The notes under the pieces: model-generated | The model's input: the letters and a program-made list of their open reading frames with translations, nothing else | Database searches by the model: none | Told to the model about the DNA's origin: nothing | Translations under genes and position numbers: made by a program | In this document: piece after piece, positions 1-5,221 of the stretch | Layout of the letters: the number at the start of each line of letters is the position of its first letter | How positions within the stretch are numbered: position 1 is the stretch's first letter | Assembly: GCA_003696125.1 (NCBI GenBank) | Contig: RFHZ01000286.1 | Span: forward strand, 1-8,134 | Source: Nitrospinota bacterium | Lineage (GTDB): Bacteria > Tectomicrobia > Entotheonellia > J063 | Direction: 5' to 3' | Length of the DNA: 8,134 bases

Positions 1-747
1 CTCCAGCAGCGGGTTCCCCACACCAAATGGGTCGTGCTCCGCTGGCCCACCCCTTCCATGGCCCAGCAGGCAGAGATGTCTACGGAGGGATTTGAGCAGT
101 TCTACTTCGATGTATGTACACTCGATTACGGGAAGATGGCGGCGGCCATGGAACCGCTCAAGGACTGGATGGAGCGGACCGATCGGGTGCACATCGTGGG
201 ACCGGGGACCGATCTTCACTTCTCCATCAAGGGACTCCCGGCGATCCCGTGTAGCGGTGAGCATAACATCCCGGACGGGGAGTGCTTTACCGCACCGGTG
301 CGGGAATCGGTGGAGGGAAAGATCACCTTCAATACGGCGACCCTCTATCACGGAACGGTCTTTACCGACGTCTCCCTGGTCTTTGAAAGAGGGAGAATCG
401 TGCAGGCCACGGCCAATCATGCCGAGAAACTCAACGAGATTCTCGACACTGACGAAGGTGCCCGCTACATCGGTGAATTTTCCCTGGGACTGAACCCTTA
501 CATTACCCGCACCATGAAGGATATCCTCTTTGACGAGAAGATCGCCGGCTCTTTTCATCTGACCCCGGGAAACGCCTATGACCTCTGTGACAATGGGAAC
601 CGGTCTGAGGTGCACTGGGATATGGTCATGATCCAGACTCCAGCCTATGGGGGAGGGGAGATCTGGTTTGATGATACCCTGATTCGCAAGGATGGACGCT
701 TTGTCCCGGAGTCCCTGCAGGCACTGAATCCGGAGCGGCTTGCCTGA
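1..747 (+). CDS. M29 family metallo-aminopeptidase, C-terminal part (5' end outside window)
   Basis: This is a thermophilic-type aminopeptidase of peptidase family M29 (AmpS/AmpT/PepS relatives), a cytoplasmic dinuclear-metal exopeptidase that removes N-terminal residues from peptides. The frame is open from base 1, and the residues before the first possible start (GTG at 34) already match the family ([17 protein letters not shown]), so the gene begins upstream and 248 residues are visible. The family metal ligands can be assigned by motif: Glu in IPDGE (codon at 280), Glu in RYIGEFSLG (475), His in [11 protein letters not shown] (556) with the likely catalytic Tyr at the end of that motif, and His and Asp in SEVHWDMV (613 and 619). 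All are present, so the visible part looks intact. It ends 26 bases before the convergent helicase gene. Family assignment is firm; the substrate range cannot be read from sequence. Confidence 0.93.
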
Positions 748-2714: not shown

Positions 2715-3731
2715 TCAGACGCTGCGTCCCACCGCTTCGGCCACGGCAGCGACCCGTTGCATCAGGGTGACAAAGTTATCGAATTTGAGCGATTGCGCCC
2801 CATCAGAGAAGGCCTCATGGGGGCGAGGATGGACCTCGATCAGCAATCCATCCGCTCCGGCCGCCACCGCTGCCTGGGCCATAGGGGTCACGTACCGCCA
2901 GTGTCCTGTCCCATGGCTCGGGTCTACGATGACCGGGAGGTGGGTTTCGTGCTTGAGTACCGGCACGGCATTGAGATCTAAGGTGTTGCGCGTGGCCGTT
3001 TCAAAGGTGCGGATTCCCCGCTCACAGAGGATCACCTTCTGGTTCCCTTCGGAGAGGATGTACTCTGCTGCCATGAGCAGCTCTTCGATGGTGGTAGATA
3101 GCCCGCGCTTTAAGCAGACCGGGATATCGAATTCTCCTACCCGGCGCAGGAGCTTGAAGTTCTGGACATTGCGGGCACCGATCTGGATCACATCCGCGTA
3201 CCTGGCCACCAGCTCCACATCTTCAGGAGCCATGACCTCGGTCTGGATGGGCAGGCCGGTTTCCGCCTTGGCTTCCTGTAGGAGCTTGAGTCCTTCTTCC
3301 CCCAGTCCCTGGAAACTGTAGGGAGAGGTGCGGGGTTTGAACGCCCCTCCCCGGAGCATGGAAGCCCCAGCCGCTTTTACGGCTCGTGCCGTCTCCAGGA
3401 TCTGATCCCGGCTTTCCACCGAGCAGGGACCGGCCACGACCACGATACGGGTGCCACCGATCTCCACCCCATCGATCTGATAGCGGCTCGGTCCGTCTTT
3501 GACCTGTTTGCTTGCCAGCTTGTACGGTTTCAAGATCGGCACAACGCTCTCGACACCGGGAAGCGCCTCCAGCGAGTGGAGGCGTGACTTCCCCCGCTCA
3601 TCCCCGATCGCGCCGATGATGCAGCGCTCTACCCCACGGCTTACATGGGGACGATACCCCAGGCTCTCAATGGTTTCGATCACCCGGTTGATCTCTCCAT
3701 CGGTGGCATCGGCCTTCATGACGACAATCAT
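2715..3731 (-). CDS. aroF: 3-deoxy-7-phosphoheptulonate (DAHP) synthase, type I-beta with N-terminal regulatory domain
   Basis: Condenses phosphoenolpyruvate and erythrose-4-phosphate to DAHP, the committed step into the shikimate pathway and aromatic amino acids. Of 338 residues, about 1-70 form a ferredoxin-like (ACT-like) domain ([19 protein letters not shown]...), the module that in Thermotoga maritima DAHP synthase mediates Tyr/Phe inhibition. The TIM-barrel follows, with AGPCSVES (100-107), [16 protein letters not shown] (127-142), IGARNVQN (184-191), LKRG (207-210), DPSHGTG (270-276) and [17 protein letters not shown] (298-314). Predicted metal ligands C103, H273, E299 and D310 match the T. 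maritima set, shifted by one. ATG 3731 is preferred over an in-frame ATG at 3815 because a strong GGAGG lies just upstream and the family N-terminus starts with this MIVVMK. The gene sits behind an attenuator leader and is followed 27 bases later by dinG. Confidence 0.96.
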
Positions 3732-3745
3732 CTCCTTTCCTCCTC
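3732..3745 (-). promoter_or_regulatory. Strong ribosome binding site of aroF
   Basis: On the minus strand GAGGAGGAAAGGAG runs directly into the ATG at 3731, with the GGAGG core about 7 bases from the start. It decides the start against in-frame upstream ATGs at 3815 and 3788, which lie inside the terminator hairpin. It lies about 30 bases beyond the terminator U-tract, so only read-through transcripts carry it. Confidence 0.85.
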
Positions 3746-3774
3746 TCTTGGCCCAACGACTGGGAACGATACAA

Positions 3775-3821
3775 ATAAAAAAGGCCATGGGTCTTTCCTT
3801 ACTGGCTCGACCCATGGCCTT
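3775..3821 (-). terminator. Intrinsic terminator in the aroF leader (attenuator, regions 3:4)
   Basis: Reading the minus strand, AAGGCCATGGGTC (3821-3809) and GACCCATGGCCTT (3793-3781) form a perfect 13-bp stem with a 15-base loop. The stem is followed at once by a U-rich tract (TTTTTATTTG, with two more T in the stem end). It stands between the leader peptide and aroF, about 40 bases before the aroF start, where it would stop transcription before the structural gene. Its position in front of a biosynthetic gene, and the competing pairing described separately, make it an attenuator rather than the end of an upstream operon. Confidence 0.92.
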
Positions 3822-3870
3822 GTCTAAAAGAGAGTTTATAGAAGAACGTGGAGACAGGAACGATGGGTCG
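3808..3870 (-). promoter_or_regulatory. Predicted antiterminator pairing (regions 2:3)
   Basis: CGACCCAT at 3870-3863, three bases past the leader-peptide stop codon, is perfectly complementary over 8 bases to ATGGGTCG at 3815-3808. The latter comprises the loop-proximal half of the terminator's 5' arm plus the first loop base. Pairing 2:3 is therefore exclusive with the terminator. The complementarity is seen directly; that it forms in the RNA and acts as antiterminator is inference from the trp/phe/his attenuation model. Confidence 0.75.
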
Positions 3871-3906
3871 GGTCAGGTACCATAGCTAAAATAGTACCAA
3901 AACCCG
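3869..3906 (-). promoter_or_regulatory. Predicted anti-antiterminator hairpin (regions 1:2)
   Basis: Minus-strand CGGGT (3906-3902) pairs with ACCCG (3873-3869), and GGTAC (3898-3894) pairs with GTACC (3880-3876). A small internal loop separates the two stems and a 13-base loop caps them. The 5' side covers leader codons Phe18-Tyr22 and the 3' side covers the last codons and the stop, running into the antiterminator segment (2 bases shared). With no ribosome on the leader, this hairpin would tie up the start of region 2 and favour termination. The shared part is short, so part of the effect may be steric. Fold inferred by eye, no energies calculated. Confidence 0.6.
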
Positions 3907-3959
3907 AAAAAGTAATAATAGCAAAAGTACCCTTCTCTCCGCTCCCGGAGATGTTCCAT
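3873..3959 (-). CDS. Aromatic-rich leader peptide of the aroF attenuator
   Basis: A 28-codon ORF (ATG at 3959, TGA at 3875-3873) upstream of DAHP synthase. The first ten residues are polar and charged (MEHLRERREG). Residues 11-26 are YFCYYYFFGFWYYFSY: 7 Tyr, 5 Phe and 1 Trp, or 13 aromatic residues out of 16. Such a run has no plausible protein function but is what a ribosome-stalling sensor of aromatic aminoacyl-tRNA needs, as in the pheA and trp leaders of enteric bacteria. ATG is the only usual start codon in this frame after the preceding in-frame stop. A possible Shine-Dalgarno AGGA lies 9 bases upstream (3972-3969); a GGAG only 2 bases upstream is probably too close. The stop codon sits beside the antiterminator segment, so a ribosome finishing the peptide would mask it and allow termination. 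Both Tyr codons and both Phe codons are used. Confidence 0.9.
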   Translation of the reverse strand: MEHLRERREGYFCYYYFFGFWYYFSYGT

Positions 3960-4019
3960 GACTCCGCGTCCTACTCGCCTGGTCTACCCTATGGGTGAAA
4001 TCAGATACCTCGTTATTCT

Positions 4020-4048
4020 TTCCTAACAGATTTCCCCAAAGTTGTCAA
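4020..4048 (-). promoter_or_regulatory. Sigma-70-type promoter of the aroF leader
   Basis: On the minus strand a perfect TTGACA (4048-4043) is followed by a 17-base spacer and TAGGAA (4025-4020). The -10 is weak, but is preceded by TG one base upstream, giving an extended -10 (TGTTAGGAA). The stretch upstream is A/T-rich with an A7 run, resembling an UP element. The predicted transcript start is near 4013, giving a leader RNA of roughly 280 bases and about 54 bases before the leader peptide ATG. The promoter lies just after the xdhC-like stop codon. Confidence 0.75.
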
Positions 4049-4066
4049 GATTTTTTTGCCGATTTT

Positions 4067-5221
4067 TTAAGGAGCAGCGGCGACCAGCGAGACGCGCTGG
4101 TAGTTGGAGAGCTTCCGGCGATCCTTGTGTCCACGGCGTACCTGGATCATCTGGGCGACGATGCTGATGGCGATCTCGGCCGGGGTATCGGCATTGATGT
4201 CCAGGCCGATCGGGGCATGGACCCGCTCCAGCAGGTGGCGGGGAATCCCCCTGGCTTCCAGCTTCTCCCAGGATTTCCGTACCTTGCGCTTGCTGCCGAT
4301 CATGCCGATGTAACGGGCCGGCGTCTTCACCGCCTGCTCGATCACGCGATCGTCGTACTGGTGACCCCTCGTCACGCTGACGATATAGGAGGAGTCGTCG
4401 ATGGGAAGCCGGGCAAAGACCTGGGAGAAGTCGGCAACGATCACCTCATCCGCCTCGGGGAAGCGCTCGGTATTGGCAAAAGCCGGCCGATCGTCGATGA
4501 CAACCAGCCGGAAACCGGCCAGCTTGGCCACCTTGGCCACGAAGAGGGAGACGTGTCCTCCACCGAACAGGTAGAGGGTAGGAATGGGGATGATCGGTTC
4601 GAGAAAGACATCGAGCGTTTCCTCTGCGGCCAGTCCCCACCGGCGGGCTTCTTCGGGGGGAAGCTGAAACTGGAATACCTTGAGGTAATCCTTTTCCATG
4701 ACCTGTAGCGCCTCTTCCCGGACGATCTCCTCCAGGTGGCTATTGCTCCCGATCTGCCCGACAACGGTCCCATCCTCCTTCAGCACCAGCTTGGCCTTTC
4801 CCCGCAGGGCAGGGGGGATCTGACCGGAGATGACCGTGGCGATGGCCCCTTTCTTCCCCGCCTCCTGGATGGCAGCGATCGTCTCAAAGACCGCCTCGGC
4901 CCTGCCCGGCACGATCGGTTCGATGAAGATCTCTACCACCCCTCCACAGTTTAACCCGGCCTCTCCGGCGTGCTTTTCGGTGAGGATGAAGCGGGAGATG
5001 CGGGGGGTATCCCGCTTCATCACCTTCTTGGCCTCACTCCAGACATCTGCCTCCAGACACCCCCCTCCCACCGTGCCCAGGGTGGTCCCCTCCTCGGTGA
5101 CGAGCATCTTGGCCTTGCCACTCATGGGGAGGGAGCCTTTGCTGGAGATGATGGTACAGAGGGCACCTCTTTTTCCCTCTCTCTGTAGACGCCGGATGGT
5201 GGCAAATATTCCTTCTTGCAT
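4067..5221 (-). CDS. xdhC: XdhC/CoxI-family molybdenum cofactor insertion/maturation factor
   Basis: XdhC-family proteins bind molybdenum cofactor and help sulfurate and insert it into xanthine dehydrogenase/CO dehydrogenase-type hydroxylases. The 384 residues hold an N-terminal XdhC_CoxI unit (about 16-103; SGKAKMLV, GTVGGGCLEADV, NCGGVVEIFIEPI). A second, diverged copy of that unit follows (about 122-212; RGKAKLVL, GQIGSNSHLEEIV, LDVFLEPI). The C-terminal part is a Rossmann-like XdhC_C domain (about 214-360; LYLFGGGHVS, VVIDDRPAFANTERFPEAD, VSVTRGHQYDD, IGMIGSKRK). Copy 2 lacks the GGGC and CGG motifs of copy 1. ATG 5221 has a GAGGAG 9 bases upstream. It is the last gene of the molybdenum-hydroxylase cluster, 107 bases after the mocA-like stop. 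No terminator follows it; the aroF promoter begins about 19 bases after the stop, so read-through transcripts would enter the aroF attenuator. Confidence 0.93.
   Translation of the reverse strand: MQEGIFATIRRLQREGKRGALCTIISSKGSLPMSGKAKMLVTEEGTTLGTVGGGCLEADVWSEAKKVMKRDTPRISRFILTEKHAGEAGLNCGGVVEIFIEPIVPGRAEAVFETIAAIQEAGKKGAIATVISGQIPPALRGKAKLVLKEDGTVVGQIGSNSHLEEIVREEALQVMEKDYLKVFQFQLPPEEARRWGLAAEETLDVFLEPIIPIPTLYLFGGGHVSLFVAKVAKLAGFRLVVIDDRPAFANTERFPEADEVIVADFSQVFARLPIDDSSYIVSVTRGHQYDDRVIEQAVKTPARYIGMIGSKRKVRKSWEKLEARGIPRHLLERVHAPIGLDINADTPAEIAISIVAQMIQVRRGHKDRRKLSNYQRVSLVAAAP

Follow-up and report, generated by a model that had tools for sequence, protein, structure and literature searches.

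The aroF gene of the Nitrospinota bacterium contig analyzed here (RFHZ01000286.1; the whole stretch of 8,134 nucleotides is called the window) is very likely controlled by ribosome-mediated transcription attenuation through the charging of the Phe and Tyr (and Trp) tRNAs, a likelihood that applies to the class of mechanism and is based on the sequence and on folding models. The initial annotation had interpreted an aromatic-rich peptide upstream of aroF as an attenuation leader, and this interpretation is supported by a full attenuator that was absent from that annotation: a terminator and an antiterminator strand lie between the leader ORF and the aroF ATG at 3731 and make attenuation the natural reading. 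The region combines a short ORF rich in end-product codons upstream of a biosynthetic gene, an intrinsic terminator between this leader and the gene, and an antiterminator that excludes the terminator and is positioned to be blocked by a ribosome at the leader stop codon. The host assembly (4.18 Mb, completeness 94.8%) consists of 990 contigs with a contamination of 8%, so that the owner of the contig is not certain.

2715..3731, minus strand: aroF, DAHP synthase with ferredoxin-like regulatory domain, Thermotoga maritima type (NF006421/TIGR01361; PF18152 and PF00793)
3873..3959, minus strand: leader peptide ORF, 28 codons plus TGA, translated as MEHLRERREGYFCYYYFFGFWYYFSYGT and stop
4020..4048, minus strand: candidate promoter, read from the sequence (TTGACA at 4048-4043, 17-nt spacer, TGt-TAGGAA with the -10 element at 4025-4020)

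The gene downstream of the leader was identified as a DAHP synthase (NF006421 with 508 bits, also TIGR01361), and the N-terminal ferredoxin-like domain of AroF (PF18152) marks it as the T. maritima type. Judged from the sequence, the most likely start of aroF is the ATG at 3731 (MIVVMK), which is preceded by AGGAGGAAAGGAG, and not the mechanical ORF start at 3815, a position within the terminator. The leader ORF lies on the minus strand, which corrects the initial annotation, and its translation confirms the aromatic run reported there: residues 11-26 are YFCYYYFFGFWYYFSY and contain seven Tyr, five Phe and one Trp (13 aromatic residues out of 16). Reading upstream from the leader ATG, a TAG is reached without any in-frame start, and the two Shine-Dalgarno candidates before this ATG (AGGA at 9 nt, GGAG at 2 nt) are weak. 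The ORF belongs to a class of genes that annotation misses.

The region is T-rich on the minus strand and comes after xdhC, as would be expected if the leader were a chance ORF and the terminator simply the one that closes the upstream operon. This explanation is highly improbable, as the initial annotation had also argued: when the intergenic region (3732-4066) was shuffled 1500 times with dinucleotides preserved and both strands were read from ATG, GTG and TTG starts, no shuffle contained more than eight aromatic residues within 16 residues, and the aromatic codons are under selection in relatives (see below). In the rest of the window the best stretch of 16 residues contains five aromatic residues.

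The same annotation had placed the leader behind a good promoter, which holds for the candidate -35 element (TTGACA, the perfect consensus) but less so for the candidate -10 element, since TAGGAA matches the consensus at three out of six positions, together with a TGn extension, and a consensus promoter scan reported no promoter. Since xdhC lies upstream on the same strand, with its end at 4067, the leader may also be transcribed by read-through from the xdhC operon. The genes on the minus strand between 4067 and 8134 resemble xdhC, a MocA-like NTP transferase, coxS, coxM and coxE (molybdenum hydroxylase and its maturation); this run of genes points into the aroF leader in the same direction and leaves only ~108 nt to the leader ATG. 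At the other end of the window (1-747, plus strand) lies the C-terminal part of an M29-type metallopeptidase (PF02073).

Three alternative RNA helices (1:2, 2:3 and 3:4) are formed by the leader and the sequence that follows it, in the layout of the textbook attenuator design as folded in silico.

3868..3907, minus strand: 1:2 hairpin (CGGGUUU..GGUACUAU-loop-AUGGUACC..GACCCGA), -21.0 kcal/mol for the isolated hairpin, also part of the minimum-free-energy fold
3863..3870, minus strand: antiterminator strand 2 (CGACCCAU), a perfect 8-bp complement of AUGGGUCG in the 5' arm of the terminator
3775..3821, minus strand: intrinsic terminator (AAGGCCAUGGGUC at 3821-3809, loop, GACCCAUGGCCUU at 3793-3781, U-run), 13-bp stem, -28.0 kcal/mol alone

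The 1:2 hairpin spans the end of the aromatic run together with the stop codon of the leader and sequesters the first bases of strand 2, which begins 2 nt past the stop. The leader region folds far more stably than its shuffles (z = -6.26), and a strand 2/strand 3 duplex of 8 bp was reached in 47 out of 5000 shuffles of the stretch from the leader end to the terminator. In a simple model of a stalled ribosome, the RNA was treated as free from 14 nt downstream of the first A-site base onward. Prior to the synthesis of strand 4, the 2:3 antiterminator has a predicted probability of 0.77-0.99 with the A site at codons 2-26 (0.99 at codons 15-26) and of 0.32 with the A site at codon 27; a ribosome at codon 28 or at the stop codon blocks it, such that the antiterminator is free at every aromatic codon position. 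The terminator outcompetes the antiterminator in equilibrium folding, and the attenuation model thus depends on the kinetics of folding during transcription, as is the case for known attenuators.

The sequence suggests the following course of events from the promoter onward. A leader RNA of ~280 nt would be transcribed by RNA polymerase, with a ribosome translating the 28-codon ORF behind it. A shortage of charged tRNA-Tyr or tRNA-Phe (or tRNA-Trp) would stall this ribosome in the aromatic run, where it would disrupt the 1:2 hairpin, leaving strand 2 free to pair with strand 3; the 2:3 pairing would then prevent the terminator and aroF would be transcribed. With an ample supply of charged aromatic tRNAs, the ribosome would reach the stop codon and cover strand 2, the 3:4 terminator would form and transcription would stop before aroF. 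An untranslated leader would likewise permit the terminator by means of the 1:2 hairpin. Under this model the speed of translation probably sets the amount of AroF enzyme.

Many Firmicutes regulate aromatic genes by T-boxes, and a T-box or another direct RNA sensor could in principle control aroF with the ORF being incidental. This is extremely unlikely given that the leader is far beyond chance and that Rfam found no T-box: the window gave no family hit at the gathering threshold, positions 3700-4080 gave no T-box at E ≤ 1, and a scan of 20 related loci returned tRNA genes only. A sub-threshold match to the RybB sRNA (34.1 bits, gathering threshold 40) at 3775-3849 on the minus strand lies over the terminator and is probably a terminator likeness.

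The comparison within the phylum comprised four other genomes, one of which, a relative of the same class (G003), carries an orthologous aroF (68%). The leader in front of it is smaller but aromatic (W..YFYY) and is followed by a 14-bp terminator with U7; strand 2 is located within the leader, and its pairing is that of AGCGGCCC with GGGUCGCU. Within the window's own genome, pheA-tyrA, trpE and a second DAHP synthase lack an aromatic leader, although little sequence upstream of trpE was available, as its contig begins just ahead of the gene. The AroF of the window is located at the base of a clade that contains the Desulfuromonadia and many other families.

A detailed analysis was possible for the Desulfuromonadia, based on 117 genomes in the class of a Geobacter locus, in 111 distinct genomes of which the DNA upstream of the best aroF was read. 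An aromatic-rich short ORF precedes aroF in 110 out of 111 genomes (a duplicate genome, L120/L231, was counted once and L333, in which the leader is present, stands for L228), and the sole true negative is G164 (L192). The absence of such an ORF from relatives had been named in the initial annotation as evidence against a leader; it is present both here and in the same-class relative. The Desulfuromonadia leaders contain 6-11 aromatic residues per 14 residues and end 131-336 nt before the gene; among base-composition shuffles, 2 out of 560 reached seven or more aromatic residues. Their consensus is roughly F.F.F[YF]FW[YF]GF[YF]FRPSAR. Trp is present in 109 out of 110 leaders, usually once, and at the main Trp column it occurs in 102 out of 109. 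The weighting toward Tyr and Phe that had been deduced from a single Trp codon is correct as a count, but since the single Trp is nearly invariant in the Desulfuromonadia it is no evidence against Trp sensing.

The aromatic codons of 74 nearest-neighbor pairs of leaders differ by 65 synonymous, 22 aromatic-to-aromatic and 35 aromatic-losing single-base changes, counts that are descriptive and do not amount to a strict test, since pairs may share branches. Hence 87 out of 122 changes retain an aromatic residue, compared with two out of nine expected from the genetic code for a Phe or Tyr codon and none for a Trp codon. At the sequence level the aromatic codons of the Desulfuromonadia leaders are under selection, in line with the check proposed in the initial annotation that relatives keep them. 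In two Geobacter-type genomes the paralogous second DAHP synthase lacks an aromatic leader. In several Desulfuromonadia (e.g., L033, L036, and L040) a second terminator-like palindrome (such as AAAGGCCGGGG...CCGGCCTTT) is located between the attenuator and aroF, and in four loci (L170, L190, L207, and L230) a tRNA gene adjoins the aroF leader region.

The aromatic run is hydrophobic enough that it might insert into a membrane, and the ORF could encode a small membrane or toxin-like peptide without a role in aroF control. Such a peptide is very unlikely to account for the data: the position of the ORF is tied to aroF in nearly all Desulfuromonadia genomes and in several other families, the ORF overlaps the three-helix attenuator, and paralogous DAHP synthase genes lack the leader.

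Co-variation was analyzed in an alignment of 70 distinct Desulfuromonadia leaders; the window's own lineage is represented by the one relative with an orthologous aroF. The 2:3 helix is formed in 84.7% of the alignment cells, with both-side changes in 8 out of 10 pairs and a covariation of 0.228 (0.159 ± 0.008 in shuffled and ≤0.095 in slid controls). The 3:4 terminator helix is formed in 95.1% of the cells with 94 double-change cells and a covariation of 0.466 compared with 0.157. The two helices share columns and both co-vary, which indicates that alternative structures have been selected. Pairing of a strand 2 is more stable with the strand 3 of its own leader than with strands 3 from other leaders (-23.3 vs. 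-20.6 ± 0.3 kcal/mol, 0 out of 5000 permutations), and the same is true for strand 1 and strand 2 (-7.84 vs. -6.79, 0 out of 5000 permutations); these permutation controls are inflated by sequence relatedness, whereas the slid controls retain relatedness and fall to 33-60% paired.

The ribosome might alternatively be arrested by the nascent peptide in a TnaC-like manner, the peptide in the exit tunnel sensing some ligand, such as a free aromatic amino acid, and the arrested ribosome setting the same RNA switch. The peptide is unusual and its F-W-[YF]-G-F part is well conserved in the Desulfuromonadia. On the other hand, leaders vary greatly among lineages except for their aromatic content, Phe and Tyr interchange (the 22 aromatic-to-aromatic changes), and the conserved nonaromatic residues (RPSA and G) coincide with the co-evolving RNA strands 1 and 2, strand 2 explaining the conservation of RPSA. 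Arrest by a plentiful free amino acid would also be expected to raise aroF at high product, the wrong sign for a biosynthetic gene. Peptide arrest is accordingly considered unlikely, and sensing of tRNA charging is the preferred explanation.

The distribution of the element was assessed in 119 aroF upstream regions across bacterial families. Eighteen of these contain an aromatic ORF at a shuffle P ≤ 0.01, in 15 cases followed by a terminator; the 18 include the window, one of the Desulfuromonadia (L333) and one genome twice (L242/L334), leaving about ten other families. Aromatic leaders also precede aroF in named genomes of Ruminococcus and other Oscillospiraceae, and Phe-rich leaders, many followed by terminators, were observed before aroF in Ruminococcus and other Clostridia (L054-L063, L067-L083, and L100). 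The AroF proteins of the Clostridia form a separate clade in the AroF tree.

A covariance model of the Desulfuromonadia element (R1) produced full-length matches in L005, L268, L300, and L010. Its match to the window is limited to model positions 76-131, the terminator half (18.7 bits, E = 0.0003). As this match does not extend over the full length including strand 2, the window element works alike but is not assigned to R1; a further match of 22 bases (E = 0.59) is meaningless. A common function of the window and Desulfuromonadia elements is well supported, and as to common descent of the window element the sequence evidence is the match to the terminator half. The Desulfuromonadia element would constitute a new Rfam-type family.

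The kind of attenuator described here is already known from two precedents, whereas the window's element and its spread appear to be uncatalogued. The AroR leader of C. glutamicum (Phe-Tyr-Phe) is described as acting on aroF by attenuation under Phe limitation (PMC11802643, which cites Neshat et al. 2014, and PMC4046766). In both cases a leader with Phe and Tyr codons precedes a DAHP synthase gene or operon, and stalling in C. glutamicum raises transcription when Phe is limiting (PMC11802643). The window leader differs from the Phe-Tyr-Phe motif as described there by its 13 aromatic residues out of 16, including Trp, and belongs to a different phylum; the likeness is one of function drawn from the description. 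The second precedent is uORFC-13-1, a predicted uORF with Phe codons and an adjoining intrinsic terminator upstream of aroF in Acholeplasma (PMC8632094). It has been reported solely from Acholeplasma and environmental sequences, contains at least one Phe with no Tyr/Trp-rich run described, and has its own base-paired substructure (PMC8632094).

The enterobacterial pheA (pheL), pheST and trp (trpL) attenuators share the end-product codons, the 1:2, 2:3 and 3:4 helices and the intrinsic terminator (PMC11802643 and general knowledge), but each senses a single amino acid and controls a terminal branch or a tRNA synthetase, whereas the window leader mixes Tyr, Phe and Trp codons at the common first step. 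The contrast with single-amino-acid sensors was nevertheless overstated in the initial annotation. Mixed-codon leaders are known from the enterobacterial thr operon (Thr and Ile) and ilv operons (Ile, Val, and Leu) in addition to AroR; like the window leader, the thr and ilv leaders contain codons for several end products of a branched pathway, although the amino acids and the pathway differ. A search of open-access papers found no literature on aro attenuation in Geobacter, Ruminococcus, the Deltaproteobacteria or the window's group; a study of bacterial attenuation by Lopatovskaya et al., cited in PMC4833913, might contain predictions.

On balance, the data slightly favor an uncatalogued and widespread attenuator family that monitors the three aromatic tRNAs together where the shikimate pathway begins, that is nearly universal in the Desulfuromonadia and recurs in several unrelated lineages, and that may there do the job of the E. 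coli repressors. The model offers a concrete circuit, open to testing, by which the first committed step of aromatic amino acid synthesis would be controlled, including in Geobacter and its relatives, and Geobacter is a tractable host for the Desulfuromonadia element. The element would represent a natural case of one leader that integrates several amino acids of a branched pathway.
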